A stretch of DNA of 64,000 bases from a virus. A program made the position numbers and the translations under genes. Location of the stretch: positions 1 through 64,000 of IMG/VR virus record IMGVR_UViG_3300020222_002168. One strand, 5' to 3'. The notes beneath the pieces were generated by a model that worked only from the letters and a program-made list of their open reading frames with translations, did not search any database and was not told the DNA's origin. Below are positions 3,937 to 34,945 of the stretch, one piece after another (position 1 is the stretch's first letter; every line of letters starts with the position of its first letter).

Positions 3937-4869
3937 TTATTTTTTATTTTCTTCAAACTCATAAATTCTTTTAATTGTTCCTTTAGGATTTTTAAGATGT
4001 TTTATTAATGCATCGTATTTTATAACTACACGATTTTTCCTATAATTGTGTTTTGGTCCGTCTATGACATAATCAATACCTTCACACCCTTGATATTTAG
4101 GAAAATATTCTAACTCATTTTTCCAATATTTTCCATATAGAAAGGGTTTGATGTAGATATCCCAGTGATCTTTCATAAAGTTAATTTCTTTTCCTGTAGT
4201 TTTTAGATGGTTACTGGCGATATAGTTATACGAATACATAAATGATGTAGTAATATGATCTGTTAAAATACTTAATAATATAGAACCAGTCCTTTCCCAA
4301 CATATTATTTTTCCTTTCCTTTCCAGCATACCGAACCCTCTCAGCCTAGAAATTTCCATAGAATCTGCACAATCTAGGGAATACCAAGTATTGTTCCTAT
4401 AAAAAATGTCAGGACCGTGTACTCCTTGAACAAAATCGTAGTCTTCTGGTAATTGTTGTAGAAATTTTTTGTGTATCAGTTGATTAGGAGGGATTCCTGT
4501 TTGATTATAGTGATCTAATATTTCTTCTTTAATGTTATTAGGATCAAGTTCTATAATAATAGGATTTATGTTATACTTTTTAGCAACAATTTTTAATTGA
4601 TTGTATTCTATTTCATTAAATTTAGGTTGATATAAAAATGCACATTCGATTTTAATGCCTTGCTCAAAAAAGCTATGTAATACTGCTTGACTATCTAGCC
4701 CAGAACTTAATCCTAACAATATTTTTTTGCTTGCTTTAGATAATTCTACTGCACGTTTTTTAAATTCTTCCCTATAATTTCCAATGTCTGACCCGCACGA
4801 GATATAATCCACAAAAAATTTATTATTATCAAAACCAAAATTAATGCCATAATCAACTATTTCATTCAT
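3937..4869 (-). CDS. PP-loop ATP pyrophosphatase (short type)
   Basis: About 310 residues from the ATG at 4869; an upstream in-frame ATG at 4929 would lie inside the neighbouring gene and is less likely. The ATP-PPase P-loop reads LLGLSSGLDSQ (SGGxDS type). Enzymes of this fold adenylate a carboxylate, amide or carbonyl before amide or thio transfer (asparagine synthetase, TilS, QueC). No glutaminase domain is present, so this is a stand-alone ligase-type domain. It resembles the protein at 14356-15243. A CATAAATA late motif lies 8 nt before the chosen start. Confidence 0.7.
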   Translation of the reverse strand: MNEIVDYGINFGFDNNKFFVDYISCGSDIGNYREEFKKRAVELSKASKKILLGLSSGLDSQAVLHSFFEQGIKIECAFLYQPKFNEIEYNQLKIVAKKYNINPIIIELDPNNIKEEILDHYNQTGIPPNQLIHKKFLQQLPEDYDFVQGVHGPDIFYRNNTWYSLDCADSMEISRLRGFGMLERKGKIICWERTGSILLSILTDHITTSFMYSYNYIASNHLKTTGKEINFMKDHWDIYIKPFLYGKYWKNELEYFPKYQGCEGIDYVIDGPKHNYRKNRVVIKYDALIKHLKNPKGTIKRIYEFEENKK

Positions 4870-4877
4870 TTTTATGA

Positions 4878-4885
4878 TATTTATG
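4878..4885 (-). promoter_or_regulatory. T4-type late promoter CATAAATA
   Basis: CATAAATA on the minus strand, 8 nt before the ATG at 4869. It sits at the very end of the DUF2061 gene. Confidence 0.55.
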
Positions 4886-5330
4886 ATATATTTGTTTCTA
4901 CAGATTTCCCCCATTTTATGCGATTCCAAATCCTTTCATGGCTCCAATATAGAATGATATTGACTACAGTAGCCATTCCCGCAAATAGCGCAGCCTGTCC
5001 CCAACTACCGGTCATGACAAATGGAATCACGAAATTGCTTACGGTGATCAAAATTCTCCAAGATACTACTTTAGAAATAGATCTCGGATGGCCTTCTGCG
5101 AAATTTAATTTTTCGTTCTCTCGACGATTCCACTGAAAAATGTTCCATGCACGTTCATGGATCCAGAACAAAGCACTGTTAATTACCAAGGCAAGTCCTG
5201 CTATCTTAACACCCATTAGCAGACTTCCTGTTACTATGAATGCATTAACCATATGGCTGATTGTTATAAGAACTCTCCAAGAAATAACCTTAGATATAGT
5301 TCGCAAGTGATTTTCTTTAAATTTGTTCAT
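4881..5330 (-). CDS. Tandem DUF2061 membrane protein
   Basis: 149 residues made of two copies of the DUF2061 pattern: SKVISWRVLITISH...IHERAWNIFQW (residues about 12-68) and SKVVSWRILITVSN...SHERIWNRIKWG (about 85-143). Each copy has two hydrophobic helices, so four membrane segments are expected. Function unknown. Base composition is less A/T-rich than the flanking island genes, suggesting a separate origin. It overlaps the upstream radical SAM gene by 14 nt. Confidence 0.8.
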   Translation of the reverse strand: MNKFKENHLRTISKVISWRVLITISHMVNAFIVTGSLLMGVKIAGLALVINSALFWIHERAWNIFQWNRRENEKLNFAEGHPRSISKVVSWRILITVSNFVIPFVMTGSWGQAALFAGMATVVNIILYWSHERIWNRIKWGKSVETNIS

Positions 5331-6804
5331 GTAACAGTTTCCTTAAGTAACTACTATATAGTTCTATTTTATTGTTATAATATTTTTTATACATTTCTAT
5401 TCTATCACTGACAAAACATTCTTCAAAATTTGCACCTAGATTATGGAAATCAAAAATACCAGTCCATGGAAGTTTATTGCCTAGCCTTTTTTCTAATTCT
5501 ATATAAATTTGCCATGCTTGAAACGACGTCATACCTTTATTATTAATCCAATGATTGTTTGGTAACATTTTGTAACCATATTTTATAGGATCTTGATCAA
5601 ATTTGCTTGACCATGGTTTCTGTTTAAAAACTTGATTAATTCCTAAAGAATGAAATCTATAACTATGTAATAAATTTTCATTTTCTAAAGTAGACACCCA
5701 TGATTTAACTGATTCGACAGAATCGTTTGGCAATCCTATTATGAATCCTCCCTCAGTCCTAACATCTTCTTTCCATACGTCTTTTATTTTTTGCAAAGTG
5801 GAAATAATTTTATCTTGTTTAATGCCTTTACCGATAACTCGGTTAGATTCATAATTTAAACTTTCTATGCCAAAAAAACAACTTACTAATCCACTTGATA
5901 ACAATAATTCAATAGTTTCTGGATGAGCATTCAGTAAGTCTAATCTAAGGTAGGTACAAAATTTAATTTTAAACGGTAATTTAGAATAAACTTTATTAAA
6001 TAGTAGTTCTAATTTCTCAGTGCTGTCGTTGTGTGTATCGTCTAAATAAACATAATTTGTAGTCTGGTATTTTTCGTAATTTGAAAGAAATAGTTCTGTT
6101 AATATTTCCGGATTTTTAATATAATCTAATTTCTTTTTACCGTTTAACGGATACGAACAATAACTACAGTTGAATATACATCCCCTAGAAATTTCTATTG
6201 GCAGAGCTTCCATAAAATTTATATGATCCGAATCATGCCAACTGAATTTGGAATTTGAAAAATCATAATTAACTGCCTTTGTATCATTGTTTATTATCAT
6301 TTTTCCTTTGGATAAATTATATTGGAAAAATGGATTTTTGTTTTGACAAAATCTGGTGAATTCTATTACTGATTGATCTGCATATCCTAAAATAAAAACA
6401 TCTATTAGTCCGGAAGTATCTTCTATATATGCTCTGCCGCCCCCTAGAACAAATTTACATTTTGGAGATATTGAATAAACGTAATCTTTAATCTCGGTAA
6501 TTTGTTTGTTATCAAAAATATTGTTTTTAAATGTTTCATCGATTTTATTAATTTTATTTGAATTCTTTTTAGGTTTATGAAAGAAAAAAGTAGTGCTAAA
6601 CCCGATCCATAAGGTATCTTTTGATACATATTTTTCTAATATATTAAGGAAAATGCTATTATTTTTGGAAATAATAGTAGATAACCAATCAACTACCTGT
6701 ACTGTATAGCCTTGTTGTCTTAACGCATTAGCTATTTGATAAGCTCCGATACTCCGGAAAAATCCTCCACTTTCTATACATGTAAACAATACTATTTCTG
6801 CCAT
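5317..6804 (-). CDS. Radical SAM enzyme with N-terminal cobalamin-binding-like domain
   Basis: 495 residues. The N-terminal 150 residues (GGFFRSIGAYQIANALRQQG, then a strand/loop pattern) look like the Rossmann domain of B12-binding radical SAM proteins. The 4Fe-4S motif CxxxCxxC is CIFNCSYC at about residues 208-215, followed by a TIM-barrel-like core (YLDDTHND, GFIIGLPND). Paralogous to the 507-aa protein at 10447-11970. Such enzymes often do methylations or rearrangements of unreactive carbons; the substrate cannot be read here. Confidence 0.8.
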   Translation of the reverse strand: MAEIVLFTCIESGGFFRSIGAYQIANALRQQGYTVQVVDWLSTIISKNNSIFLNILEKYVSKDTLWIGFSTTFFFHKPKKNSNKINKIDETFKNNIFDNKQITEIKDYVYSISPKCKFVLGGGRAYIEDTSGLIDVFILGYADQSVIEFTRFCQNKNPFFQYNLSKGKMIINNDTKAVNYDFSNSKFSWHDSDHINFMEALPIEISRGCIFNCSYCSYPLNGKKKLDYIKNPEILTELFLSNYEKYQTTNYVYLDDTHNDSTEKLELLFNKVYSKLPFKIKFCTYLRLDLLNAHPETIELLLSSGLVSCFFGIESLNYESNRVIGKGIKQDKIISTLQKIKDVWKEDVRTEGGFIIGLPNDSVESVKSWVSTLENENLLHSYRFHSLGINQVFKQKPWSSKFDQDPIKYGYKMLPNNHWINNKGMTSFQAWQIYIELEKRLGNKLPWTGIFDFHNLGANFEECFVSDRIEMYKKYYNNKIELYSSYLRKLLHEQI

Positions 6805-6806
6805 TT

Positions 6807-7475
6807 TTAAAATCTTTTTGAAAGATCTTTTGTATAAATTTGTTCTTTTCTATCATCTGAGTACGCAAGTCGAGTCCAATCGTAATCAAAATCTTCATCT
6901 ATAATTTCGTAACATATCCATTGCTTTGTTTGATTAATAATCAGCGGAAAATCGATTATTTTAAGTCCATTACTGAATAGGTCATTTTTATTTCTATTTG
7001 TAACTCTTTCTTTATTTTCGCCTAATCTATTTCTTTTAAAAACCTGTATTAAATTTTTATTATACTCATTAAATGACAGAAATATTATTTTTGCTTCTTT
7101 CTTTATAGCCCAAGATCGTTGTTCTGGGAAAAAATATTTTTTGTTAATAGATTGATTCCTATACTCTTTTTTGATCCAAGTCCTTACTCCAGCCGAAAAT
7201 ATCAAAGGATGAAATTCGCTTACATGTATACCGCTACATCCAATTACTTCGTTGTTATTGTATAGAATATAAAATTTTCCATTCGGTTCTTTAAATTCAT
7301 TAGTAGATTCTAATCGATATCCCAGAGTCCATGGTTTAACAAAGGTATTTCTAGCCCACATATTAACAGACGCCGATTTTTCCGTTTCTTTCGAAGCATC
7401 TCGGCAAAAATTAAAAAAAAATTCTTTATCTTGGATCGTTAAATTGTCATAAGTTTTTAAGATAAAATCATTCAC
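6807..7475 (-). CDS. GNAT-like acetyltransferase
   Basis: 222 residues. The central part has the GNAT order: strand FYILYNNNEVIGCSGIHV, then AGVRTWIKKEYRNQSINKKYFF where the acyl-CoA loop is expected, then a later strand IIFLSFNEYNKNLIQVFKRN. The Q/RxxGxG/A motif is not canonical. It overlaps the downstream hydroxylase-like gene by 4 nt and sits 2 nt after the radical SAM gene, so all three probably form one operon. Confidence 0.5.
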   Translation of the reverse strand: MNDFILKTYDNLTIQDKEFFFNFCRDASKETEKSASVNMWARNTFVKPWTLGYRLESTNEFKEPNGKFYILYNNNEVIGCSGIHVSEFHPLIFSAGVRTWIKKEYRNQSINKKYFFPEQRSWAIKKEAKIIFLSFNEYNKNLIQVFKRNRLGENKERVTNRNKNDLFSNGLKIIDFPLIINQTKQWICYEIIDEDFDYDWTRLAYSDDRKEQIYTKDLSKRF

Positions 7476-8107
7476 GTAGAAAATTCCTTTTTGAAATAAA
7501 TTTTGTAATCCTCTGGGAAAACGAATTCTGATCTCTTCATTAAAATTTCTATGTTGGTGTATGAATCGTTACCCACCCAAGGAGCTCCGGCTGCTATAGT
7601 CAACTTATAATCATCGTCGAAGTTATTCATTCCGTGAGGCCAACTTCCGTCCATTAAAAATGGTGATGTAATATTTGGAACATACACATCATGCTTATCA
7701 GTTTTAAAATACAGTGTTTCTGTTTTTCCTTTTAAAACTATTCTAAATTTATGTTGTTTTGTGAAGATCGAATTTTTATCACAATCTACATGTTCTAAAT
7801 TTTTAGATTTCTGGTTTGTAAGCAGTGCCATAATTCTGGTTTTAGTTCCCATCCACGGAAAAACGTATGTTTCAAACCAATCTATTATCACTGGGGGAGT
7901 ATAAGCCAACCATTGAAATTCTCCTTGTAGATTATTTTTAGTTCCAAATGGTCCGGGGACAGGATTTTTTGTCATTAGTGAAAGCATATTGGTTGCTCTA
8001 TAGGGATCCCAAAACCAATAAGATTTATCAATCTTCATAATTTCGTATGTAGATTTTTCTTTGTTTAAATCTGGAAAAATGATTTTAGCGAACAAAATAT
8101 CGTCCAT
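7472..8107 (-). CDS. 2OG/Asp-hydroxylase-like protein
   Basis: 211 residues. HVDCD (about residues 107-111) would supply the HxD iron ligands, and a distal His lies in SWPHGMNNF, followed by KLTIAAGAPW. This fits the aspartyl/asparaginyl hydroxylase type of cupin-fold dioxygenase, with moderate certainty. First gene of an operon: an AATAAATA late-type motif ends 5 nt before its ATG. Confidence 0.55.
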   Translation of the reverse strand: MDDILFAKIIFPDLNKEKSTYEIMKIDKSYWFWDPYRATNMLSLMTKNPVPGPFGTKNNLQGEFQWLAYTPPVIIDWFETYVFPWMGTKTRIMALLTNQKSKNLEHVDCDKNSIFTKQHKFRIVLKGKTETLYFKTDKHDVYVPNITSPFLMDGSWPHGMNNFDDDYKLTIAAGAPWVGNDSYTNIEILMKRSEFVFPEDYKIYFKKEFST

Positions 8108-8146: not shown

Positions 8147-8869
8147 ATGGAAATTCCGTTAAATAGTCATCCTTGGAAAATTTTTTCTGGGACCACACAA
8201 GAATGGGAATTATTTGATACGAAGGAAAGATTCGTTCGTAATTTGCAAAAAAATAGAAATTTATTAGCGGTCAACGGTTGGCTAGAAAAAAAAATTTATT
8301 ATAATTTTAATAATGAAGGATTTCGATCAGACGAGTTCTCTCACGATAGAAATTCAATATTATTTTTGGGCTGTAGTTTAACATTTGGAACCGGATTACA
8401 ATTAGAAGAAGTATATGCTTATCAGTTATCTAAATCCCTAAATATGAAATATTATAATCTAGCTCTGGGTGCAAGTTCTAATGATACTTCATTTAGACTT
8501 GCATATTATTACATAGCGAAGTTATTACCAAAGATAGTAATTTGTCTTAGTCCAGAACCAACTAGATTAGAACTCTGGGATGATGAAGATGTGCTATTTT
8601 TTAGGCACGAAAAATCGGAATATTTGAATAATGGATTTTATAAAACGTGGTTGCTGAACAATAATAATTCTTTCCTCAATCAAAAGAAGAACATATTAGC
8701 GATTGAAAATATATGCAATTCATATCGAATTAAATTTAAGACTTACAATTCTAATGAAGTTTTTACAAATGAAATATGGGCAGACAATGATTTTGCGAGA
8801 GATTTAAGTCATCCTGGGAAGCATACCCATAAGTGTGTGCATGATAAAATATTAAGCACGTTAGATTAG
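8147..8869 (+). CDS. SGNH/GDSL-type hydrolase
   Basis: 240 residues. SGNH blocks are visible: block I FLGCSLTFGTG with the nucleophile Ser (about residue 77), block III-like GASSND, and block V DLSHPGKHTH with Asp and His of the triad near the C-terminus. Expected esterase or lipase, possibly a deacetylase of glycans. No signal peptide, so cytoplasmic. It is read opposite to most of the island. Confidence 0.75.
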   Translation: MEIPLNSHPWKIFSGTTQEWELFDTKERFVRNLQKNRNLLAVNGWLEKKIYYNFNNEGFRSDEFSHDRNSILFLGCSLTFGTGLQLEEVYAYQLSKSLNMKYYNLALGASSNDTSFRLAYYYIAKLLPKIVICLSPEPTRLELWDDEDVLFFRHEKSEYLNNGFYKTWLLNNNNSFLNQKKNILAIENICNSYRIKFKTYNSNEVFTNEIWADNDFARDLSHPGKHTHKCVHDKILSTLD

Positions 8870-8870: not shown

Positions 8871-9365
8871 TTATTGATCAGCAGTTACACCAACAAAATG
8901 CAATCTTTCATAGTCAGAAGTATTAATAAATGTGTGTGCTAGCCTGGTATCAGTTAGCCATATTTTATCTACAGTTAAATGCCTTATTTCCCCGGTCCTA
9001 AATAAAAAATAACATTCTTCATTAGTTATGATAGGAACATGTATTCGAGGAAGTCTATCTCTATGAAAACTATAACATCTATAAGGTAAAACCCACATAA
9101 GTCTACTTCTATATAAATTATATTCTGTTATGATATCTTCAAAAATTGTATTCTTAAAAAAAGGATTTAATTGATCGTAGTCAGTTTCTGCCCCTGTTTG
9201 CCGACCAACAGAACTTGCCCAATGATCTTCTCCTTTTTTGAATTGTACGCTTGTTTGTTTCGAGTTTACAGAACTGTGCCATTGGATTTGTGAATCTAAT
9301 GTCTGGTAAGTACGTAGAATTTCTTCAATGGCTGTTTTATCTAAGTTTTTTAAAATTTTTATCAT
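8871..9365 (-). CDS. 2OG/Asp-hydroxylase-like protein
   Basis: 164 residues. SFHRDRLPRIHVPI gives the HxD iron pair (HRD, about residues 101-103), RLAHTFINTSDYERLHFVG gives the distal His and an Arg. This is the aspartyl/asparaginyl beta-hydroxylase pattern. It lies tail-to-tail with the SGNH gene, 1 nt apart. Confidence 0.65.
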   Translation of the reverse strand: MIKILKNLDKTAIEEILRTYQTLDSQIQWHSSVNSKQTSVQFKKGEDHWASSVGRQTGAETDYDQLNPFFKNTIFEDIITEYNLYRSRLMWVLPYRCYSFHRDRLPRIHVPIITNEECYFLFRTGEIRHLTVDKIWLTDTRLAHTFINTSDYERLHFVGVTADQ

Positions 9366-9949: not shown

Positions 9950-10469
9950 AAAAATTAATATAAAGAATATAAAAAGTATTCAATCTGAGCTTTTAACCTA
10001 TCTCAAAGTCCATACTGATATTTTAAATGATAAAACTATCGGATTTATACCATTAAACAAACAGAGTGTTATTGATCACTGTGCAGATACTCTATACTTT
10101 TTCTTAAAATTAAATTTGACTCCGGTTAGATTTAATTTATATAAAACAATAAAAAATGGTGATAGTCTAGTTCATATTGATACCTATGAATATAAGACCA
10201 GGATTAATATTCCGATTTTAAACTGTGAGCATAGTCAAACCAAATTTTTTAAAGCCAGACCTAATGTTAAAATAGTACAAAAAAATAAACTTCCATTTAT
10301 TTTATGTGATCAAGAATCTGCAGTTGAAGTGGATAATTTTGTACTGGATATGCCAACTGTATTTAAAGTAATGACACCTCATCAGGTAATAATGGACGAA
10401 AATTTTTCTCCAAGAATAAGCCTCACTGTAAAATGTGATCCTGATCCTATTTTTCTATTACGTGATTGA
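9939..10469 (+). CDS. 2OG-Fe(II)-like hydroxylase, tandem paralogue
   Basis: 176 residues. HID in LVHIDTYEYKTRINIPILN (HxD), distal His in MTPHQVIMDE, and Arg in SPRISLTVKCD. Close in layout to the 181-aa neighbour. Its 3' end overlaps the convergent radical SAM gene by 23 nt. Confidence 0.6.
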   Translation: MNYKKINIKNIKSIQSELLTYLKVHTDILNDKTIGFIPLNKQSVIDHCADTLYFFLKLNLTPVRFNLYKTIKNGDSLVHIDTYEYKTRINIPILNCEHSQTKFFKARPNVKIVQKNKLPFILCDQESAVEVDNFVLDMPTVFKVMTPHQVIMDENFSPRISLTVKCDPDPIFLLRD

Positions 10470-11970
10470 TATTCTTGAGTTGATCTATGTAATCATTTAC
10501 TTTATTATTTCGAAATGATAGTAGATCATATTTTTTTATTATTTCTGATTGAGAGAGATTAGTTATATCATAATCATTAACTATTTCTTGATAAAAAGTC
10601 CATAGCCAACCACCAAATTTCCAATTCGTAAAAGATGATTTACGCCGAATCTCTTTTGATCTTGCAGTGCAGTAATCATAATCTAATCCTGTGTTTTTAT
10701 TGACCCAACCAGATACCTTCCAAAATTCACTAGATGAATCTAAAATCTCATATCCATATTTTTCATAATTTAAATCAAATTCTGATTGATAATATGATTT
10801 TTTCGTATAAGAAGGAAATATTCCTAACGGGAAAACATACCAATAATCTAATGGATTGCTTGAACTTAAAAGCCATGATTCAAAATCATCTATAGTTTCT
10901 TTAGTATCATGCGGCAAGCCGATTATAAAATTCCCAGAAATTAATATATCTTTCCACACGTCCTGTTTAATTTCTCTTACAAAGTCTAATTGTCTTTTTG
11001 GATCCATTCCTTTTCCAATTGACTTAGCAGATTTTGGATTGGTACTTTCTATTCCGCAAACTGCACTTTTTAATCCAGACTCTTTAAGAATTTTTAAGGT
11101 TTCTGGAAAAGTTGTTAATAAATCTAATCTTATGTATGTGGCAAATTTTATCTTAAACGAAAGTTTTGAATAAACTTCGTCATATAAAATTTTAAGTTTG
11201 TCTACACTATCATTGTATGTATCATCGGTAAAGGAATAATTAGTGACGCCAAAGTCATTATAATTCCTTTTTAACTCTTCTTTTAAGACATGGCTTTGTT
11301 TAATCCATTCTCCTTTGGTTTTACCGTTTAAAGGATAACTACAAAATTTGCATTTGAAAATACATCCTCTGGATAGTTCTAATGGAAGTACGTCTTTGGA
11401 ATCAATTATATCTGATTTTGTGTATTTTATTGATGATTTTGTAAACCCTTCGAATTCTTTTCCGACTATATGGTTTGAATAAAATTGAAGGTCTATTTTA
11501 TTGGATTTTCCAGCCAACCAGTTTGTAAAATCTACAATTTCTTTATCGACATATTTTTCAAATTTTATAAACCCCAATTTATCTAATCGGTAATTTCTGG
11601 CTCCACCATATATCATTTTGATTTTAGGATTTATTGATCTAACGAAAGAAATAAGTTTATGTATTTCTTCTTCTAGTGTTTCAAAATTTAACGATTTATA
11701 TCTTTCATCATCTATTAATTGCAAACTAAAAGGGTAACTTAAAATTTTATGTAGAAATGTTACGCTTATACCTATCCACAAAGTTTCTACACCTACAAAC
11801 TTCGTTAAAATATCTTTTAAGTCTTTATCTAGCTTTTTAAAAATTGCTATATCTATCGTCTGTACTGTATACCCGTTATCTCTTAATTCTGACGCTATTC
11901 TAAATGGACCGGCTGCTTTAGGCCCTGTAGGAAAATCTGAGTTACCATAAAGTATGACACAATTAACCAT
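10447..11970 (-). CDS. Radical SAM enzyme with cobalamin-binding-like N-terminus
   Basis: 507 residues. N-terminus GPKAAGPFRIASELRDNGY resembles a B12-binding Rossmann domain; the cluster motif is CIFKCKFC (about residues 207-214) in LSRGCIFKCKFCSYPLNGK. Strong block similarity to the protein at 5317-6804 (shared SRGCIF, CSYPLNGK, TNY, DDTxND, GFIIGLP-like). Two paralogues in one island may act on successive positions of one substrate; that is inference. Confidence 0.8.
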   Translation of the reverse strand: MVNCVILYGNSDFPTGPKAAGPFRIASELRDNGYTVQTIDIAIFKKLDKDLKDILTKFVGVETLWIGISVTFLHKILSYPFSLQLIDDERYKSLNFETLEEEIHKLISFVRSINPKIKMIYGGARNYRLDKLGFIKFEKYVDKEIVDFTNWLAGKSNKIDLQFYSNHIVGKEFEGFTKSSIKYTKSDIIDSKDVLPLELSRGCIFKCKFCSYPLNGKTKGEWIKQSHVLKEELKRNYNDFGVTNYSFTDDTYNDSVDKLKILYDEVYSKLSFKIKFATYIRLDLLTTFPETLKILKESGLKSAVCGIESTNPKSAKSIGKGMDPKRQLDFVREIKQDVWKDILISGNFIIGLPHDTKETIDDFESWLLSSSNPLDYWYVFPLGIFPSYTKKSYYQSEFDLNYEKYGYEILDSSSEFWKVSGWVNKNTGLDYDYCTARSKEIRRKSSFTNWKFGGWLWTFYQEIVNDYDITNLSQSEIIKKYDLLSFRNNKVNDYIDQLKNINHVIEK

Positions 11971-11973: not shown

Positions 11974-12747
11974 TTAAATTTTAATTATTTTTATTATCAT
12001 CGCTGATACATCTATTTCCCACCATGATTCACCGCAACTGTAGTTCTTAGGATGCCTATGATGATTGTTGTGCCATGTTTCTCCCCAGCTAGGAATCGCC
12101 CATAGCCAATTGTTTGTGCTCTGGTCTTTCAAATTATATCGACGATAACTTCCAAACCAATTAGGTTTATGTCCTATGTAGTTTACAACATTACTCATGA
12201 TCCCTGTAAGCAAGGCAGGAGCCCAGTGCAAAAATATCATCAGATATGATCCCCCTAATATGAATAGGATTAGGCTCCATAAAAATAAAATTATAAAATA
12301 GTAACGATGTAAAAATTGTTGATATCTATCTGTTATAAGTTTTCTCATTTTCCATTTAGTGTTACCATCCACCCGTGCATCATACGATAATGAAAATATT
12401 TTGTATCCTCTGTATTTAGGACTATGAGGATCGGTTACTTTATCACTTTTTAAATGATGATTGATATGGATAGCAGTCCATGCTAATGGGCTACCTGTGT
12501 TACCGAAGCATCCCAGTAGTGAAAATAAATTTTTTATTATAGGAGTAGTCTCGTAGCTATTATGGGTGAGATTTCTGTGGAATGTGACCACTATTCCTAG
12601 ACATCCATATAAGAAATATCCAATAACAATAAGTAATAGAGCAAAATAGTCTAATCCATGACTGTAAATTCCTATAATTGTGCCGATTATGCTTATGATA
12701 GCGAATATTTGGACTCCTAAAGTATTACTAGAAAATATATTTTTCAT
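11974..12747 (-). CDS. Delta-9-type fatty acid desaturase
   Basis: About 257 residues from the ATG at 12747; an upstream ATG lies inside the neighbouring gene. Three histidine boxes of membrane acyl-CoA/lipid desaturases are present: HRNLTH, HINHH and HNNHH. Four hydrophobic segments. The enzyme inserts a double bond in an acyl chain with O2 and a di-iron centre. It overlaps the next desaturase by 4 nt; it lies 3 nt before the radical SAM gene. Confidence 0.85.
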   Translation of the reverse strand: MKNIFSSNTLGVQIFAIISIIGTIIGIYSHGLDYFALLLIVIGYFLYGCLGIVVTFHRNLTHNSYETTPIIKNLFSLLGCFGNTGSPLAWTAIHINHHLKSDKVTDPHSPKYRGYKIFSLSYDARVDGNTKWKMRKLITDRYQQFLHRYYFIILFLWSLILFILGGSYLMIFLHWAPALLTGIMSNVVNYIGHKPNWFGSYRRYNLKDQSTNNWLWAIPSWGETWHNNHHRHPKNYSCGESWWEIDVSAMIIKIIKI

Positions 12748-15265: not shown

Positions 15266-15273
15266 TATTTATA
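15266..15273 (-). promoter_or_regulatory. T4-type late promoter TATAAATA
   Basis: Perfect TATAAATA on the minus strand, 22 nt before the ATG at 15243 of the PP-loop/desaturase/radical SAM operon. Confidence 0.7.
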
Positions 15274-19803: not shown

Positions 19804-19919
19804 GTTTTGACTCCTAAGATTGCTAATCCATGTATTTATTGTTTAGTTCTAAATTACTGCAGTCAATAATACTAAGAATTTTTATCACTACGATACTTAT
19901 TTTTTTAAATAAACGTTAT

Positions 19920-22816: not shown

Positions 22817-23014
22817 CTATTTATTTTTCAAAAAATGACATTCTGTTTCATCGACTATTTTTTTTGCTAACCTATAAGGTGTGAATGGAAAAAGGAAAGG
22901 AAACAAACTGTGTATAACTCCAGTGATCAGTATCAACACCGCAAGTAGATTAAAATAATTGGCATAGAAAAAGTGTTTAAAGTAACCTGAGTTGACGTCT
23001 TTAAGATGTTGCAT
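22817..23014 (-). CDS. Small membrane protein, DUF6356-like
   Basis: About 65 residues from the ATG at 23014. SGYFKHFFYANYFNLL followed by a helix ending VIHSLFPFLFPFT is the layout of the DUF6356 family. One membrane segment. Unknown function; begins 14 nt inside the preceding gene. Confidence 0.6.
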   Translation of the reverse strand: MQHLKDVNSGYFKHFFYANYFNLLAVLILITGVIHSLFPFLFPFTPYRLAKKIVDETECHFLKNK

Positions 23015-26405: not shown

Positions 26406-27347
26406 TTACATTCTGTATTTCTTTGGTATTATTTTACAACCATGTGTTTTTCTTCCATTGTAAAATATCCAATCATTGATTTTATGAACACAATCGCCCG
26501 TATGAAGCCATCCGTCTTTATGCACATTTTTTCCTTTTAAAATAAGTTCTGAGTTTAAAATCGTAAAGTCACACCAGCATTTATCTCCTAACGGAATACC
26601 TTGATCAAAAATTTCTAATTCTGTTCTTTCACTGAAGATGTGATTTATTATAATAGGACCAGCTTCAGTCAAGCCGTAGTTACACATAAAATTGACACCA
26701 TTTTGTAAAAAAAAATCTACATGTTCTTTTTTAATACAATCGCTACCTGCTACAACTAATTTTAACATGTTTGATTGAAAATTATTTAACTTAATTAATG
26801 TGTCTATCATTGCAGGAACTAAATGAGTCTTAGTTATATTGTAATTTTTAACGTCTTTAAAAAATGAGAATCCATTAAATTTTTTAATGATTACACTTGA
26901 TCCTGCTAATAACGCAGGAAGTGTTTGAGCATTGATTCCACCGGTGTGATTTAACGAACAGACTGTGAAGATATTATCATCAACAGATAATTTTTGTGAA
27001 TTAATAGCTATTTCTGAATTTTTTAAAATCATATCTTCGGGGATTTTTATTGCTTTTCTAATAGTGCCCGTGCTACCGCTACTATAAAGATATAATTCAA
27101 ACACATTATTTAAATCATCCGGTATTAATATATTATCAGAATCATATTTTGGAGGAATAATTAACGGTAAATTCCTATAAGACGCATGCAGAATATCGAT
27201 GATAATATTCTCATCTACTGCCGATGAAATAAGTTTGTATTCATTGTTGTGGATCAAATTTAACAAATCGTTAAATGAACAATCATTAACGGCTCGTTTT
27301 GATGGAAATTTTTTAGCAATATTTAAAAAAAGATTATATAGTTTCAT
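26406..27347 (-). CDS. AMP-forming acyl/aryl-adenylating enzyme, C-terminally short
   Basis: 313 residues. ANL-superfamily motifs are clear: P-loop YSSGSTGTIRKAI (A3), CNYGLTEAGP (A5) and GWLHTGDCV (A7). The family normally has about 500 residues with a C-terminal lid of about 110; here the protein stops soon after FYNGRKTHG, so the lid with its catalytic Lys is missing. It could still adenylate with a separate partner or be non-functional. Adjacent to the PP-loop gene upstream (9 nt apart). Confidence 0.75.
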   Translation of the reverse strand: MKLYNLFLNIAKKFPSKRAVNDCSFNDLLNLIHNNEYKLISSAVDENIIIDILHASYRNLPLIIPPKYDSDNILIPDDLNNVFELYLYSSGSTGTIRKAIKIPEDMILKNSEIAINSQKLSVDDNIFTVCSLNHTGGINAQTLPALLAGSSVIIKKFNGFSFFKDVKNYNITKTHLVPAMIDTLIKLNNFQSNMLKLVVAGSDCIKKEHVDFFLQNGVNFMCNYGLTEAGPIIINHIFSERTELEIFDQGIPLGDKCWCDFTILNSELILKGKNVHKDGWLHTGDCVHKINDWIFYNGRKTHGCKIIPKKYRM

Positions 27348-27355: not shown

Positions 27356-28543
27356 TTAGTAAACTGGATTGTATATTTTTTTTAAATCGATAGAAGGATT
27401 CATTTGTCCTATGAAATAATTATATGAAAAAGTTATTAAACCATCGGCTTTGTTATCATCTATGTTAACAAATTTAGCTGCATACTTTTCCACATATCTA
27501 ATTCCTTCTAGCCAAACATTATGATGATCAGTTCCAGAAAGATTGTTAATAAACCAAGAATCAAATTCACTATACCAATCTTTGGTTGCTTTATCGCACT
27601 GAAACCATGTGTTATCCCATGTAGTATAAATTAATGTTCTCAAAATTCTTTCATGAACTAATCTATACATATGTTTAGTCATGTTTTTATGGAACCATAT
27701 AGAATAATTTATTGGGTCTTTTTCTAGCCAACGTTTAATTATATGTGCTTGTTTACATAGTATATCGCAACTGTCAGGACTCCAATAAAAAAATTCTACG
27801 GTTGAATTAACGTAATCTTTGAAATAATCTGCTATACCAACGATATTAGCAGCACGATCAGTAAATCTTAAGTAAAATTTATTATTAGAATGGATGAACG
27901 TTCGAGGTTTTTCAATCCCTAAAATAACTGCAATTTTTTTATCTTTATCAAATTTTTTCCTTACTTCGTTGAAATGGAGATAATTAAACCTAGTGACATT
28001 TAACGGATTGAGTCCTTCTTTTTTGTTTAGAATCCACGATGCATCATTGTTAGATAACCAATGTGTGAAAAGATGATCAGTAAGATCTAAGATAGTTATT
28101 TTTGTCTTTGGTGATCTATTTTTGATTTCGTTTAATCGAGGTATAGTTTGCAAATAGTGTTCTGACGCGGCATTTTCGGGATTCTTTATCTTAGGATCGA
28201 GTATTGTAAATTTACTATTACCTTTTTCCATCGTGTTGATTATTAGTTCGTCTATATGTAATCCTTGACGAATAAAACTTTCAACTATGTTATGACTGTC
28301 CGCTCCGCCACTATAGCTTATGATGATATAGTCATACATTTCTCGTAATTGTCTAGATCTTTTGTCGTACAACTGGTCTAGCGTAAAATCAGGTTCTACA
28401 GTCCAATTATATTTTTCAAATACATCATTGTTGAATATCCATTTTATATCTTTATTAGATTTCGTCCCCTCTATACAGGCTAGAATTTTAGAATCATATA
28501 GACATTTATCAATTGCATAGTATCCTAATTTGTTGTTTATCAT
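27356..28543 (-). CDS. PP-loop ATP pyrophosphatase (long type)
   Basis: 395 residues. WTVEPDFTLDQLYDKRSRQLRE, then P-loop SYSGGADSHN (about residues 75-84), later FFYWSPDSCDILCKQAHIIKRW. Same architecture as the proteins at 16775 and 29472. It pairs with the adenylating-enzyme gene downstream. Confidence 0.7.
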   Translation of the reverse strand: MINNKLGYYAIDKCLYDSKILACIEGTKSNKDIKWIFNNDVFEKYNWTVEPDFTLDQLYDKRSRQLREMYDYIIISYSGGADSHNIVESFIRQGLHIDELIINTMEKGNSKFTILDPKIKNPENAASEHYLQTIPRLNEIKNRSPKTKITILDLTDHLFTHWLSNNDASWILNKKEGLNPLNVTRFNYLHFNEVRKKFDKDKKIAVILGIEKPRTFIHSNNKFYLRFTDRAANIVGIADYFKDYVNSTVEFFYWSPDSCDILCKQAHIIKRWLEKDPINYSIWFHKNMTKHMYRLVHERILRTLIYTTWDNTWFQCDKATKDWYSEFDSWFINNLSGTDHHNVWLEGIRYVEKYAAKFVNIDDNKADGLITFSYNYFIGQMNPSIDLKKIYNPVY

Positions 28544-28586: not shown

Positions 28587-29468
28587 ATGTATAAATTTTT
28601 TAACTGTAGATATCCCATAGTTGCGGTAGCGATGAATTCGGTATCTAATTTAAATTTGGCCTTGGCCTGTTATAATGCAGGAATAATTCCTAGTATTTCT
28701 TTTTATAACTATTATACTGATAATCTACAGATCTCTGATTATGATTTACAAAAATTCGAAGAAGATGTAAAAATTTTCGTTGAACAGACTAACAGCGGAG
28801 AATTAATAATTAGCATGAGTGCTAATCATCTTTTTGATATTAAAGTACAAAATTTAATTAAAAAATATGATTTACAGTATATAGAATTATGCCAAGATGT
28901 TAATCCCAGCACTTTTGATTCTATCAAAAAGATAAAAAATAATTTAAATTTTAGATTAATAATTAAGTGTATGTATTCAACGCCATTAATGCGCTGTGAT
29001 GCAGTGATTCTTAAAGGTCCATTAGGCGCCGGAAGATCTATTCCGGATGGTGAATCTCTTATAGATATGACGATAGCTCTAAGAAAAGCACATCCAAATT
29101 TAACAATAATTGCCTCTGGGGGAATAACAAATAAATCTGATATTGAAACAGTATTATCAGCAGGAGCAGATTTAGTCGGTATAGGGAGTCTGTTCGCTGC
29201 TTCACTAGAAAGTCCTGTTAGCGATGAAACTAAAGATAAAATTGTAAATTCTACGTATAGAGATTTAACACGTATTGGTAAATTTAAACAGCAAGGTCTG
29301 TTTTTCGGATCAATAGATCAAAAAGACAATATGAATCAATCAAATGGTTTAAATATCGGAATAAAAGATCCAACATCTGGTGGCCATATCTATTTAGGTA
29401 AAGCGGTAGATGAGATAGGGGAAGTGCTTAGAGTTGAGGATATCGTAAAAAAATTAATGTTTGGTTGA
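28587..29468 (+). CDS. Nitronate monooxygenase-like FMN TIM-barrel protein
   Basis: 293 residues. N-terminus YPIVAVAMNSVSNLNLALACYNAG fits the first barrel strand of nitronate monooxygenase and enoyl-ACP reductase-II types. TIIASGGITNKSDIETVLSAGADLVGIGSLF is the phosphate-binding region for FMN. Between are ISMSANH and DAVILKGPLGAGRS. It may oxidise nitroalkanes or act as another flavin oxidoreductase. Read opposite to its neighbours. Confidence 0.7.
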   Translation: MYKFFNCRYPIVAVAMNSVSNLNLALACYNAGIIPSISFYNYYTDNLQISDYDLQKFEEDVKIFVEQTNSGELIISMSANHLFDIKVQNLIKKYDLQYIELCQDVNPSTFDSIKKIKNNLNFRLIIKCMYSTPLMRCDAVILKGPLGAGRSIPDGESLIDMTIALRKAHPNLTIIASGGITNKSDIETVLSAGADLVGIGSLFAASLESPVSDETKDKIVNSTYRDLTRIGKFKQQGLFFGSIDQKDNMNQSNGLNIGIKDPTSGGHIYLGKAVDEIGEVLRVEDIVKKLMFG

Positions 29469-29471: not shown

Positions 29472-30665
29472 TTATAAATCATAGGACATCGTAGATATAA
29501 CTTTCAATTGACTAGGCCGGTTATCTGAATCAAAAGTTAAAAAATTATAATTTACACCATGCAGAATTTCATTTAATTGTCCTTGATGATATTTTTTAAT
29601 TTTATCATCAATATAATTATCTTTATAAAACCAATATCCTACTTCTGAATAATACATACTGAATATTTTTTTAACCTGGAACACTTCAGTATTCCAATCT
29701 TTGTATAATATTTTTTTTATTGGATCTGAATGAACATTAAACACAATTTTAAGATTTTTATTACCTTGAGGATTTTCTAAACATAAATCTTTACATTGAT
29801 AGATATTCTTTGATAGTAATATATTTTCTATATATTGTTTGATAAGCTGAGATTGTTTTATTACTATTTGTGGCATGTCGGGGGTATAATAAAAATATTC
29901 TACCTGCGGAACGTATTCAAAGTTTAACTCATCAAAATGACCGTACACACCGTTGATGTCTATAAAAAAACTTTCGAATTTTTTATTTTCTCGGTTGAAT
30001 CTTATCCTGGGTTTATCTATACCGTAAACTATAGCGGCTTTGTTTTTGTTTTTTAAATGAGAAAAAATACTGTATTGCCAACCTGTTGCTACAGATAAGA
30101 GTACTCCACTTTGTGAAAATTTATGAAATTCATTGTTTTTTATAATTTCTAAAGTTTCGTCTATGTAATCTAATACAGTAATTTTTATTCCAGGATAATA
30201 CGTGTTAACATATTTTATCAATGGATATGCAGCATGAGTATATTCAAACATGTAATTTTTAGGATCATCGTCTCTAGGATCAAAATTTTTTATATATTTT
30301 TCTATAGCCTTAATTGGAAATGAACAAATTATTTCGTCAACTTTAATATTATTTTTTAAAAAACTCATTAGCATATTTGTAGAATCTGCACCCCCACTTA
30401 TAGCCAAAGCTAGATATCTATAGTTGTCTCTGAGTTGAATAGCACGTTGTTTATAGATATCATCGATAGAATCGTTTATTTCTTTTTTCCAATCGAAAGA
30501 ATTATAGATTTCATCAAAAAGATGAAATCTAATCTGATTATTACAAATTTTGTTAGCGTATTTTAAACATTCAATTTTGTTAAAAAAACATTTCTGGTTC
30601 ACTTGCCAGAATCCTCTTTTTTTTAACATTGATAGATTAACGGCTGTTTGATAATCATAAATCAT
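29472..30665 (-). CDS. PP-loop ATP pyrophosphatase (long type)
   Basis: 397 residues. QVNQKCFFNKIECLKYANKICN, DDIYKQRAIQLRDNYRYLALAISGGADSTN with the P-loop near residue 92, and a later FYYTPDMPQIVIKQSQLIKQY. Third long-type copy. A weak late-like AGTAAATA ends 5 nt before its ATG. Tail-to-tail with the flavin enzyme gene, 3 nt apart. Confidence 0.7.
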   Translation of the reverse strand: MIYDYQTAVNLSMLKKRGFWQVNQKCFFNKIECLKYANKICNNQIRFHLFDEIYNSFDWKKEINDSIDDIYKQRAIQLRDNYRYLALAISGGADSTNMLMSFLKNNIKVDEIICSFPIKAIEKYIKNFDPRDDDPKNYMFEYTHAAYPLIKYVNTYYPGIKITVLDYIDETLEIIKNNEFHKFSQSGVLLSVATGWQYSIFSHLKNKNKAAIVYGIDKPRIRFNRENKKFESFFIDINGVYGHFDELNFEYVPQVEYFYYTPDMPQIVIKQSQLIKQYIENILLSKNIYQCKDLCLENPQGNKNLKIVFNVHSDPIKKILYKDWNTEVFQVKKIFSMYYSEVGYWFYKDNYIDDKIKKYHQGQLNEILHGVNYNFLTFDSDNRPSQLKVISTMSYDL

Positions 30666-30669: not shown

Positions 30670-32157
30670 TTATTTACTAATAGACTTTGTATATAGCCAC
30701 AATTTTATAGATATAAAAATCATTGTCAGGATAATAATTGAAAAAGAGATAGGTTTATCTATAAAAATCATTAGGCTTCCGTCACTTAGCATAAGCGATT
30801 TTCGAAAATATTCTTCAAATAATCTTCCGATAAGGAATCCTATTACTAAAGGTGATAAATCGCAATCTAAAAATTTTAAAATATATCCAAGTATGGCCGA
30901 AAATATTAATATATAAAATCCGAATAGGTTGTTTGATATTATATAAGCTCCGAAGAAGCAGGTTATTACTATAAAAGAGAATAGCATTTTTTGAGGAATT
31001 TTCAAAATAGATATCCATATTCCAATTAATGGTAAATTAAGTATTAATAAAAATAAATTACCTACCCACATAGAAACTATTAATCCCCAAAAAATTTCAG
31101 AATTATTTTGAACCAGAGTTGGACCAACTGCTATTCCGTTTATTATTAATACAGCTAAGATGATAGACATAGCTGGAGTAGTTGGTATTCCTAATGCCAA
31201 AGTTGGAACGAAGTTAGTCTGAGATGCGGCATTGTTAGCACTTTCCGGAGATGCCACTCCTTCTATTGCCCCTTTACCAAATTTTTCTGGAGTTTTGCTA
31301 AAATATTTTTCTGCATAATAGCTAATGTAAGATGTTATCAGCGGTCCTATTCCTGGCAAAAATCCTAAAATTGATCCTATAAAAGTTCCTCTTAATATAG
31401 GGCGAATAGATTTATTGATATCAGATCTATCTGGATAAATTTTTTGGATATGAGGTATTTTTAAAGAAGTTTTCGCGTGGAAAAAATTATAAAGAATTTC
31501 ACCAAGACCAAAAACTCCCATAGCGATGATGGCAATTTGTAATCCATCATATAAATCTATAAGACCAAAGGTAAATCTTTCTTGACCAGAATTATTATCT
31601 ACTCCTATTAATCCTAATAGAATTCCGATACAAACTACTCCTAAGGATTTGTAAAAATTATTATTATTAGCAAATATAATAGATAATAATAAACACATGA
31701 TCATAAACATTGTGTATTCGACCGGTCCAAATATTAATGATACTTTTGCTATCCAACCCCCTAAAATAATAATTAAAAATGTAGAAATAGTGCCCGCGAT
31801 AAAAGATCCAATGACTGATATTGATAATGCTGAGCCTGCTTGATTATTTTTAGTCATCGGATATCCATCTATTGTAGTAATGACTGAGCTTGGTTCTCCA
31901 GGTAAATTCATTAATATAGATGAAACAGATCCACCATATTGGCTTCCGTAATATACTCCTGCCAGAAAAACAATTGATGACAATGGGGAAGAAATGTAAA
32001 ACGTAATAGGCAGAAGGATAGATAAAGTTGCTAAACTTCCTAGACCAGGAAGAACTCCTACAAATGTTCCAATGAATACTCCTGCGAAACAGAGTAAAAT
32101 GTTATCGAGAGTAAAAAAATGCAAGACTCCTAGAGAAACACCACTAATTAGTTCCAT
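30670..32157 (-). CDS. tctA: Tripartite tricarboxylate transporter, large permease TctA
   Basis: 495 residues, around 11-12 hydrophobic helices. Family hallmarks: GVFIGTFVGVLPGLGSLATL near the N-terminus, YYGSQYGGSVSSILMNLPGEPSSV, and the second half repeat LGFLPGIGPLITSY with ASQTNFVPTLALGIPTTPAMS. It would move a carboxylate across the inner membrane, driven by an ion gradient, together with TctB and the binding protein TctC. Length is normal. Overlaps tctB by 10 nt. Confidence 0.9.
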   Translation of the reverse strand: MELISGVSLGVLHFFTLDNILLCFAGVFIGTFVGVLPGLGSLATLSILLPITFYISSPLSSIVFLAGVYYGSQYGGSVSSILMNLPGEPSSVITTIDGYPMTKNNQAGSALSISVIGSFIAGTISTFLIIILGGWIAKVSLIFGPVEYTMFMIMCLLLSIIFANNNNFYKSLGVVCIGILLGLIGVDNNSGQERFTFGLIDLYDGLQIAIIAMGVFGLGEILYNFFHAKTSLKIPHIQKIYPDRSDINKSIRPILRGTFIGSILGFLPGIGPLITSYISYYAEKYFSKTPEKFGKGAIEGVASPESANNAASQTNFVPTLALGIPTTPAMSIILAVLIINGIAVGPTLVQNNSEIFWGLIVSMWVGNLFLLILNLPLIGIWISILKIPQKMLFSFIVITCFFGAYIISNNLFGFYILIFSAILGYILKFLDCDLSPLVIGFLIGRLFEEYFRKSLMLSDGSLMIFIDKPISFSIIILTMIFISIKLWLYTKSISK

Positions 32158-32339
32158 TTAACATTTTTAAAAATTAAAATTGATCCTGTTAATGAAAGAA
32201 GAATAGATATTATTAAGGGAAAAAAACCTGTGCCTATATCTGCTATGTTCCCTATATTGTAATGTAAAGAATATATTAAAAAAGTAATACCGATAATTAA
32301 AAATAAAACACCGGTCGTAATGTTTTTTATGTTATTCAT
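32148..32339 (-). CDS. tctB: Small permease TctB, shortened
   Basis: 63 residues with two hydrophobic helices. The FxxY..NIGNIADIGTGFFPLIISILL segment matches the N-terminus of TctB (DxGPGFFP-type motif), but the usual protein has about 150 residues and four helices. It sits between tctC and tctA and overlaps tctA, so it is likely translated; it may be a reduced but working form. Confidence 0.65.
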   Translation of the reverse strand: MNNIKNITTGVLFLIIGITFLIYSLHYNIGNIADIGTGFFPLIISILLSLTGSILIFKNVKWN

Positions 32340-32342
32340 TTT

Positions 32343-33173
32343 TTATAATCCATAATTCTGAAGATATTTTATATATTCTTCTAAGAGATTTGTACTAACA
32401 TTTTTGTCTACTTTGAGATGAGGAATATTATTCTTAATAACATACTCGCTGAACTTTTGATTGTTAGTGGCCTGGTCTAAACAGTTATCAATAATCATTT
32501 CTTCTTCTTTTGTTAACCCTTTATTCGTAAAGATAGCAGCAAACGAAAGATTTTTTAATTTTATTTCACCTATATTAATAGTCTCATTGAATGGTATTTC
32601 ACCGATTACTTTTATGTTATCAAACATTTTCGTCCATGCGTCAACATTTGGACCTGTGCTAAAATAAACATCTAAATCTCCATTCATTATCATCGGAAGA
32701 GCCTTTACATCACTTCCAGTTATTACGATTATGATTTTTGTATTTTTGTTTTTAATTTCTTTAGCAAATGCTTCAAATTGACTGCCTGGGTTATGGATGC
32801 CTATTTTTAGAGGTTTAGTCAAAAGGTCATTCAGAGTGTAGTTCTTGATAGTAATAATTTTAACTGATGATCCGAACACTATTCTATTCATCTTCACATT
32901 GAGATCCTTATTAGGATTATTTGCTGAATACATCATAGCAGGTGATAATAAAAATGTATTCTTAGATTTGTTCATATAATTGATTGCACTATTCCCATAA
33001 GCTCCTGGTTTGTATTCAATACCAATATTACTATTACCTATTTGTAAACTTCTAGCATTTATTTCGCTAGCACCCCCGGGGGGGAAAGGAATTAACAGTG
33101 TGCATTTTTCGTTAGCGCTTGCTAATGATATAGTAGATGACAACAATAATAAAATTAAAATAAAATTTTTCAT
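32343..33173 (-). CDS. tctC: TctC/BUG-type periplasmic binding protein
   Basis: 276 residues, a little shorter than the usual 300-330. N-terminal signal peptide (residues 1-20, ending near LASANE), then TLLIPFPPGGASEINAR, the BUG-family ligand loop. It would bind a carboxylate in the periplasm. Order tctC-tctB-tctA on one strand is the standard operon order. AAGGATAA precedes the ATG. Confidence 0.85.
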   Translation of the reverse strand: MKNFILILLLLSSTISLASANEKCTLLIPFPPGGASEINARSLQIGNSNIGIEYKPGAYGNSAINYMNKSKNTFLLSPAMMYSANNPNKDLNVKMNRIVFGSSVKIITIKNYTLNDLLTKPLKIGIHNPGSQFEAFAKEIKNKNTKIIIVITGSDVKALPMIMNGDLDVYFSTGPNVDAWTKMFDNIKVIGEIPFNETINIGEIKLKNLSFAAIFTNKGLTKEEEMIIDNCLDQATNNQKFSEYVIKNNIPHLKVDKNVSTNLLEEYIKYLQNYGL

Positions 33174-33708: not shown

Positions 33709-33741
33709 TCCTGATTATTCTAAAATTTTAGGTTATTAATT

Positions 33742-34320
33742 TCAAATAACATATTGAACATCCGCAGCCAAGATGAATCTAAAATTTTCGCTCTGTGGAA
33801 TGCCCGGTCTGTGCCATTGATTGCTGGGATAGATCAACCAATTTCCGTCTGTGGGGCTGACGAAAAACTTACCGTCTTTTTCAGGACCATTTGGAGCCAT
33901 CTCTGTGCCACAGTAATCTCGGTCTCGGACATCTTCAGGTATGTGCAGATACCAAACTCCGCTGAGCATTTTGGCATTTGGATTTTGGGAATGCCAATGA
34001 TTGTGCCAGAGTTTATCTCTGTCTTCGTGCGTCTCGAGATTAGTCATGTACGACCAGGCCATCATGTTAGACACACGGACTTCACGGCCCAAATACATAA
34101 AAACAGAAAACAAAAAACTCATTCTGTACTTTAACCACACGGCTTCTTGCCTTCCAAATATGTTTTCTTTGGTCTGGAATCGTGGACTGTTAGTAAAGTA
34201 ATTACCGTCTGCGATTATGTCTTTGATTATACCGCAGGCCTCTGCGTCGTCTCTCTTTGTTATCAGCGAACTGAAGTCGAATTTGCGGAATGTTTGGTCT
34301 TGATCGATTACGGGATTCAT
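33742..34320 (-). CDS. 2OG-Fe(II) oxygenase-like phage protein
   Basis: 192 residues. LWHNHWHSQNPNAKMLSGVWYLHIP, GTEMAPNGPE and WLIYPSNQWHRPGIPQSENFRFILAADV give the iron His, the beta strands, the distal His and Arg of the phage oxygenase type. Its base composition is clearly less A/T-rich than the genes around it, so it probably belongs to the phage backbone or came separately. Confidence 0.7.
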   Translation of the reverse strand: MNPVIDQDQTFRKFDFSSLITKRDDAEACGIIKDIIADGNYFTNSPRFQTKENIFGRQEAVWLKYRMSFLFSVFMYLGREVRVSNMMAWSYMTNLETHEDRDKLWHNHWHSQNPNAKMLSGVWYLHIPEDVRDRDYCGTEMAPNGPEKDGKFFVSPTDGNWLIYPSNQWHRPGIPQSENFRFILAADVQYVI

Positions 34321-34333
34321 TAAATATTTTACC

Positions 34334-34945
34334 TTATAAGTTTAATATTTTTTTTGCATCGTCAAAATACATAAATCCGGGATTCGTTACCCTTAAGGTT
34401 AAAATTTTTCTAGAATAAGAAGATTCATTTTTCCAAGAATGGAAAATTTCTGTATTAAATAATATCATTTCTCCAACAGATGCTACCATAGACTTACTAT
34501 GAGTAAACTTATTCATAGAATTGAAGTCGGGATATATATTACGAGTATAACTTTTTAGTCTATTGATGTTGTGATTAAAATGATCAAATTGATCGTTATC
34601 ATACCAATAAGTTGTGCATAAGGTATCATGAATTTCTATAGGTATATTAAAACTTACCCTATGATCTTTCCCATCCTTATGGATTCCACATCCTCCGCCC
34701 GGCGGAGTTTCGAAAATTGAAACTCTATCTAAAATAAAATCAAATTTAAAATCATCCGGAAGCAAAGAAATTATTTCTTTAGAAATTTCGACTGGAAAAT
34801 CTTTATGGAAATAGGTACTGGTATGTCTAATTTTTAGTGTATATAATTTAGAAATTACAAATTGAATAATTGAGTCTAATTTATCGAAAGTAAATCGTAT
34901 GTAAAAAGGGCTACAATCTTCCAAAGTTTGAATCTTTGAATACAT
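34334..34945 (-). CDS. 2OG-Fe(II)-like hydroxylase
   Basis: 203 residues. PPGGGCGIHKDGKDHRVSFNIPI supplies HxD (HKD), GEMILFNTEIFHSWKNESSYSRKILTLR the distal His and Arg. Last gene of the A/T-rich island on this side. Confidence 0.65.
   Translation of the reverse strand: MYSKIQTLEDCSPFYIRFTFDKLDSIIQFVISKLYTLKIRHTSTYFHKDFPVEISKEIISLLPDDFKFDFILDRVSIFETPPGGGCGIHKDGKDHRVSFNIPIEIHDTLCTTYWYDNDQFDHFNHNINRLKSYTRNIYPDFNSMNKFTHSKSMVASVGEMILFNTEIFHSWKNESSYSRKILTLRVTNPGFMYFDDAKKILNL

Follow-up and report, generated by a model that had tools for sequence, protein, structure and literature searches.

The 64,000-nt window analyzed here (positions 1 to 64,000 of IMG/VR virus record IMGVR_UViG_3300020222_002168, which has 99,528 bases in all) contains, at positions 3937 to 34945, a phage metabolic island built around a new enzyme family. 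Our leading interpretation, which we hold tentatively, is that of a variable metabolic island near the tail-fiber and ThyX genes of T4-like, often jumbo, phages, whose PP-loop synthetases and tripartite tricarboxylate transporter (TTT) parts serve the uptake and activation of a carboxylate. As a rule, metabolic genes in phages duplicate individual steps of the host. In this case a repeated linked set couples organic-acid receptors, and at times a whole transporter, to an enzyme family that searches of prokaryote genomes and isolate phages did not turn up. If the coupling is true, these phages choose and import their own substrates, beyond redirecting host metabolites. The preliminary description of this DNA knew of no phage system with such an inventory, and we likewise found, in open-license papers, no description of it, of the receptor TctC or the synthetase family PPa in phages, or of their link.

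Receptor, membrane subunits and synthetase stand in one operon of overlapping genes, tctC-tctB-tctA-PPa3, which runs on the minus strand from 33173 down to 29472 and whose transporter genes (30670-33173) had gone unmentioned in the preliminary description. TctA, the large membrane subunit (30670..32157), matched PF01970 with 463.6 bits over the full profile (1-423 of 423). TctB, the putative small membrane subunit (32148..32339), has 63 aa and matched the first half of the PF07331 profile with 24.5 bits (cut-off, 29.1). The TctC-like receptor (32343..33173), predicted to be exported, had no Pfam match of its own; it clustered with 66 phage TctC proteins, most of those tested matching PF03401 above the cut-off, and aligned at 94% in hhalign to the TctC set A7. 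The family of 67 members occupies 37 dereplicated loci, the window counted, and the hydrophobic N terminus seen in the window was present in 64 of the 67 proteins. A PDB sequence search with TctC gave chance-like matches only. The order C-B-A, the full-profile TctA and the TctC export signal recall proteobacterial TctCBA systems and orphan TctC/Bug receptors. Unlike the proteobacterial TctCBA, the operon is phage-borne, its TctB is half-length, its partner is a PP-loop protein, and its TctA is 38-43% identical to the best bacterial relatives found (tree support, 0.28).

The preliminary description had proposed looking for co-occurrence in other large phages, and the gene set does recur there, with conserved neighbors and statistically linked sub-modules. 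Scans of IMG/VR, from which viral loci are given L numbers below, returned 240 relatives by PPa and 73 by the B12 radical SAM protein; in 142 foreign loci, homologs of PPa, PPb, radical SAM, desaturase, NMO, GNAT and DUF2061 proteins were common, and GroEL and DnaK were absent. When same-strand neighbor pairs were compared with shuffles within loci (96 loci after dereplication), 28 PPa-TctC pairs were observed against 5.9 expected (0 of 500 shuffles), and PPa adjoined 37 of 50 TctC genes. Since loci collected by means of PPa would favor PPa in such counts, a second scan took TctC as its anchor; PPa was present in all 27 loci, nearly always adjacent, and PPb1 was next in line in most. A control anchored on NrdB, comprising 80 loci of similar phages, contained no PPa, TctC, PPb, NMO or desaturase, and 17 longer contigs of this control set held 0 TctC and 1 PPa. 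Of the long contigs carrying the gene set (28 in all), 17 have a T4-type Gp23 capsid gene, 22 have TctC and 2 have TctA. TctA directly adjoined PPa in L064, L071 and L151, and a TctC-TctB-TctA series lay near PPa in L112.

Against 50,697 phage records, tblastn of PPa (two proteins), PPb1, TctC and the radical SAM protein rSB2, as well as megablast of 25 kb, gave no match, and the TctA and DctP matches in that collection sat in records resembling bacterial DNA. The one earlier report of a phage tctA that we found, on a SUP05 viral contig (PMC4164917), is doubtful; unlike the present case, it is a protein-domain match only, on a contig from non-reference methods and with no PP-loop link.

Conserved motifs bore out the counts given in the preliminary description of four radical SAM proteins (CxxxCxxC in all), five PP-loop ATPases (S[SG]GxDS in all) and two desaturases (His boxes). 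The PP-loop proteins, all encoded on the minus strand, are PPa1 (16775..18046; SGGADS), PPa2 (27356..28543; 27% identical to PPa1 in alignment A5), PPa3 (29472..30665; SGGADS; also in A5), PPb1 (3937..4869; SSGLDS) and PPb2 (14356..15243), and SGGxDS was invariant in alignments A5 and A6. PPb1 probably starts at the internal ATG at 4869; the open reading frame (ORF) list gives a TTG start at 4929, and relatives begin at the later ATG. Pfam was nearly blind to the five, yielding only QueC for 3937-4929 at 17.8 bits, below the family cut-off of 22. The structure models of PPa2 (pLDDT 95.7) and PPb2 (pLDDT 94.1) had as their best match the synthetase half of asparagine, beta-lactam and carbapenam synthetases, with Z scores of 11.1 for PPa2 and 13.8 for PPb2 (the latter to asparagine synthetase over 257 residues). 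The glutaminase-type N-terminal Ntn domain is absent from these proteins of 295-423 aa, the models starting at its last part at most. On the strength of the models we predict with high confidence that PPa and PPb are stand-alone synthetase domains of the asparagine synthetase B/beta-lactam synthetase fold, similar to these enzymes and the carbapenam synthetases in fold and SGGxDS ATP motif and dissimilar in the missing glutaminase half and, for PPa, in the lack of a significant sequence-family match. PPa and PPb are homologous (hhalign, 94.7%), and PPb2 aligned with AsnB at 91% over 96 columns. PPa matched no protein family library, its PDB sequence search gave chance-like matches only, and no prokaryotic PPa was found in a genome-contig scan that was limited to strict patterns; a search of 398 genomes of one phylum, which has limits of its own, gave one partial match at 21.9 bits.

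Asparagine-synthetase-like enzymes activate carboxylates, and the pairing of such a predicted activity with the ligands and neighbors known for TctC suggests that an acid is captured, activated as acyl-AMP and then converted into an amide. Bacterial TctC proteins mostly take dicarboxylates (aspartate and glutamate among them) as ligands, and orphan TctC/Bug receptors, which like those described here often lack membrane subunits, tend to neighbor enzymes using carboxylated substrates (PMC5812351, PMC4996985). We therefore propose that the exported receptor may bind a small acid, probably a dicarboxylic one (aspartate, glutamate, citrate and nicotinate are ligands of its bacterial relatives), which would enter via TctA/TctB of the phage here and via host membrane subunits in most relatives. 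PPa and PPb would then spend ATP on converting a carboxylate to its acyl-AMP and join it to ammonia or to an amine of the substrate through an amide or similar linkage. A second sub-module, comprising the desaturases, GNAT, B12 radical SAM protein and PPb2 and, in relatives, Rieske proteins and a fatty-acid hydroxylase, may make or tailor an acyl or lipid-like part of the product, and the two sub-modules might feed each other. The presence of the transporter thus shifts the likeliest reading from a modified macromolecule to small-carboxylate uptake and ATP-dependent activation, with lipid-type tailoring in addition. Given how tightly TctC and PPa are paired, the TctC ligand, once found, should point to the PPa substrate.

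Several observations weigh against this proposal. TctC occurs without TctA in most phages of the set, so that either uptake depends on host subunits or TctC has another role, and the TctB of the window is half-length. DctP-type (TRAP) receptors were found in relatives near PPa or another PP-loop enzyme, and 19 of 20 had no hydrophobic N terminus; they seem to be cytoplasmic, and receptors without a signal fit simple uptake poorly. By sequence, PPa scored only 11% in hhalign against Asn_synthase, and neither PPa nor PPb2 had a Pfam match, so PPa at most works like an asparagine synthetase and is not filed as one. The truncated AMP-binding protein of the island is private to this phage. Finally, the single pathway envisaged in the preliminary description gave way to at least two or three sub-modules, which are only partly linked and may not form one common pathway. 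Four of the DctP-type phage proteins, at L021:6843-7775, L035:5530-6486, L084:8396-9355 and L089:8030-8971, matched with 139-200 bits.

The second sub-module includes two adjacent membrane fatty-acid desaturases on the minus strand, DES1 (11974..12813) and DES2 (12744..13499), which exceeded the family cut-off of 29.7 bits (60.3 and 57.8 bits) with the HR...H, H..HH and H..HH boxes intact. The island also encodes rSB2 (10447..11970), a B12-type radical SAM protein in which no B12-binding domain was detected; rSB1 (5317..6804), a radical SAM protein with a weak B12-binding domain (17.2 bits; cut-off, 32.1); and the GNAT-like acyltransferase GNATa (6807..7475), all on the minus strand. Both radical SAM assignments come from Pfam, the NCBIfam models (PhpK, ladderane and HpnJ for rSB1) remaining below cut-off. 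Of the GNAT and methyl transferases listed in the preliminary description, the GNAT stood weakly (19.7 bits; cut-off, 20.7), and no family was found for the methyltransferase-like pair (24423-25070 and 23001-23684). Within PPa loci, the desaturase-PPb2-GNAT-radical SAM-Rieske genes form one linked group and PPb1-NMO-DUF2061 another; beyond the TctC pair, the neighbor counts over shuffles included 17 versus 3.3 for desaturase-radical SAM, 9 versus 2.3 for NMO-PPa and 7 versus 1.6 for DUF2061-PPa.

The desaturase group points to an acyl chain as one part of the product. The group could instead belong to a remodeling of the host membrane, in which desaturases, hydroxylases, B12 radical SAM proteins, the NMO/FabK-like protein and the AMP-binding enzyme alter the acyl chains of host lipids while the TTT and PP-loop proteins form a separate nutrient or amino-acid module. 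We consider this the best of the alternatives, although unlikely. The intact His boxes, the profile match of DES1 to an acyl-CoA desaturase (4ymk), the fatty-acid hydroxylases that join the gene set in relatives and the linkage of desaturase, GNAT and radical SAM genes speak for it. However, the strongest partner of the desaturases is PPb2, a protein with an amide-forming type of fold, present in 20 of the 21 loci with a desaturase, and GNAT, Rieske and 2-oxoglutarate (2OG) enzymes are not standard for membrane lipids. Cyanophages carry lipid desaturases, for which a membrane role has been proposed, and the Pelagibacter phage Mosig is a further aquatic phage with a membrane desaturase gene (31% identity); unlike those, the two desaturases here are adjacent and linked to PPb2, GNAT and B12 radical SAM genes. 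Single parts of the island, namely, desaturases, 2OG oxygenases and one doubtful tctA, are already known in phages. A third desaturase (record positions 97255-97965, within L002:13545-17526, i.e., record 95545-99526) has a higher GC content, lies at the contig end and, by eye, adjoins genes resembling those for DNA polymerase III alpha, a class II aldolase and isocitrate lyase.

A hot spot near the tail-fiber and ThyX genes that gathers independent metabolic genes, recurring through frequent exchange among large aquatic phages, would account for the strong variation in gene content between relatives, the several sub-modules, the lack of homologs in foreign viral loci for the AMP-binding protein and two other island genes, and a GC content that departs from the flanks only in this phage. 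We regard it as rather unlikely, since neighbor pairs and co-occurrence lie far above shuffles, with TctC accompanied by PPa in every locus of the TctC-anchored scan, and long collinear runs are common to the island and L095/L110. L095, an AT-rich phage contig, and its near copy L110 keep DES2-DES1-rSB2-OG-AspH-SGNH-OG-GNAT-rSB1 (OG, putative oxygenase) with one inversion and also keep the trio SDR-OG-rSS1. The locus itself is conserved, because in L037/L052 and L028/L031 this gene set is likewise flanked by genes 35321, 33742 and 38779 on one side and by 2511, ThyX and 395 on the other. The pN/pS ratio was 0.20-0.58 for each gene tested in a coding comparison with the nearest relatives, with synonymous sites near saturation, and the island genes are under purifying selection. 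Conserved neighbors, linked sub-modules and this selection all oppose unrelated hitchhikers lacking conserved order, the outcome that the preliminary description had named as fatal to its view.

It is less probable still that the island is a true small-molecule cluster with its own importer, in which TctC, with phage or host TctAB, would import a dicarboxylic block, the phage-only PP-loop family would turn it into an amide or lactam, and the desaturases, B12 radical SAM, Rieske and 2OG oxygenases would tailor a compound (e.g., a lipoamino-acid amide) directed at the host or at rival phages or cells.

Modification of virion protein, the tail fiber or DNA by the oxygenases, twitch-type radical SAM, PP-loop and methyltransferase-like proteins appears improbable. 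The island does encode a tail-fiber-like protein with an Mtd_N domain (18112..19803, minus strand; 38.2 bits), absent from the preliminary description, whose homologs lie by the gene set in L028, L031, L037, L052, L070 and L132, and it is rich in candidate Fe(II) oxygenases and in twitch-type radical SAM proteins, namely, rSS1 (21694..22731; NF033640, 165.5 bits) and rSS2 (25067..26389; 280 bits, above the cut-off of 170), both on the minus strand. Yet such a scheme leaves the exported TctC receptors and TctA without a role, proteins and DNA are not substrates of membrane desaturases, and no specific known base-modification enzyme was among the families detected. Within the tail-fiber-like gene, a 98-bp tandem duplication (19235-19428) is 99% alike.

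A chimeric assembly, or a phage contig fused to bacterial DNA, is virtually discounted despite the sharp GC change at both borders, barring an identical misassembly in every one of the data sets concerned, since the fiber gene lies inside, the flank genes also adjoin the gene set in other phages, and contig G001 (99,685 bases) matches window positions 6-49687 without gaps at 99.92% identity, spanning both borders, while G002 (window 6-31436) spans the left one at 99.9% identity. The island is therefore real and not chimeric at 3.9 or 35 kb, the positions at which the preliminary description had seen that risk. Its stated difference in base composition over about 31 kb agrees with a GC content of about 30% in the island versus 44% in the flanks and with the GC profile, which is 0.28-0.33 over most of 4-34 kb versus 0.40-0.48 on either side, the exceptions being the tail-fiber-like gene (0.41) and the oxygenase gene at 33742-34320 (0.44). 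In relatives, module genes lie only 2.5 GC points below their neighbors (59 of 68 loci), which rules out low GC as a trait of the gene set; for the same reason, an AT-rich phage like the one behind L095 probably supplied the copy found here. G001 and G002 are separate assemblies, not surely of separate phages, and may come from one sampling series. Island single-nucleotide polymorphisms (SNPs) against G001, 7 synonymous and 7 nonsynonymous, are too few for selection tests.

Of the "about 10 cupin-type hydroxylases" of the preliminary description, ten HxD...H proteins stood, but Pfam names only two of them, and only one true cupin was found (16167..16790, plus strand; AraC_binding, 28.6 bits). 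The HxD...H...R/K pattern was present in 10 of 10 small oxygenase candidates versus 23% of shuffles and 10 of 52 other ORFs; with a pattern this loose, single assignments are tentative. On the minus strand, the candidates are 7472..8107 (67% identical in L095/L110), an Asp/Asn beta-hydroxylase-like protein (8871..9365; 24.8 bits, above cut-off), 13496..14359 (homolog in L037), 21090-21791 (63-64% identical in L095/L110, order kept) and 33193-33708, 33742-34320 (weak 2OG-FeII_Oxy_5 match) and 34334-34945; on the plus strand, they are 9404-9949 (conserved in L095/L110), 9939-10469 and 19830..20585. By eye, an SGNH-hydrolase-like (8147..8869, plus strand; conserved in L095/L110) and an SDR-like protein (20590-21093, minus strand; 68% identical there, order kept) were recognized. 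The adenylating enzyme and flavin oxidoreductase of the preliminary description were recovered as the AMP-binding protein (26406..27347, minus strand; SSGSTG; 69.8 bits over profile positions 167-348 of 384) and an NMO/FabK/IMPDH-like FMN barrel (28587..29468, plus strand; NMO, 52.4 bits), which stands beside PPa in other phages. Two families had been overlooked: DUF6356 and DUF2061, the latter in a membrane protein with two repeats (4881..5330, minus strand; 94.9 bits) found beside PPa/PPb1 in other phages. Bacterial loci with DUF2061, returned at only 3 kb, held no other island homolog. A defense search (PADLOC) with ten proteins gave only weak partial matches (QueC, <20 bits; viperin and one candidate model, ≤26.8 bits).

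The late-type promoters suggested in the preliminary description were not borne out: 4 TATAAATA sites were found in the window versus 9.6 expected, with no T4-type enrichment. Two of the four, at 15266-15273 and 18051-18058 on the minus strand, lie just upstream of PPb2 and PPa1.

The DNA belongs to a large T4-like phage with an unclosed genome. G001 extends 50 kb beyond the window on the left, and outside the island the contigs encode a T4-type clamp loader, baseplate-fiber connector, PhoH and endolysin; ThyX, NrdA/B, GroEL and DnaK were read by eye from their ORF lists. Also by eye, GroEL, DnaK, COQ7-like di-iron hydroxylase and peroxiredoxin genes were noted in the same phage record (window 59220-63092; L001 1612-2136 and 12613-13170). 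In G001, an FAD amino-acid-oxidase-like gene is followed by a KdsA-like gene (54434-56426; L009:14434-16426; by eye), hinting at lipopolysaccharide-related functions in the same phage. An Rfam search gave no match. The window holds 22 tRNA genes within 5 kb (36813-41952), with apparent duplicates of Leu-CAA and Cys-GCA (143-bp repeats, 89.5%). SNPs separating this record from G001 are tightly clustered at 28661-28679 and 48780-48792, some spaced exactly 3 bases apart, a pattern suggestive of mixed strains or of recombination with a relative.

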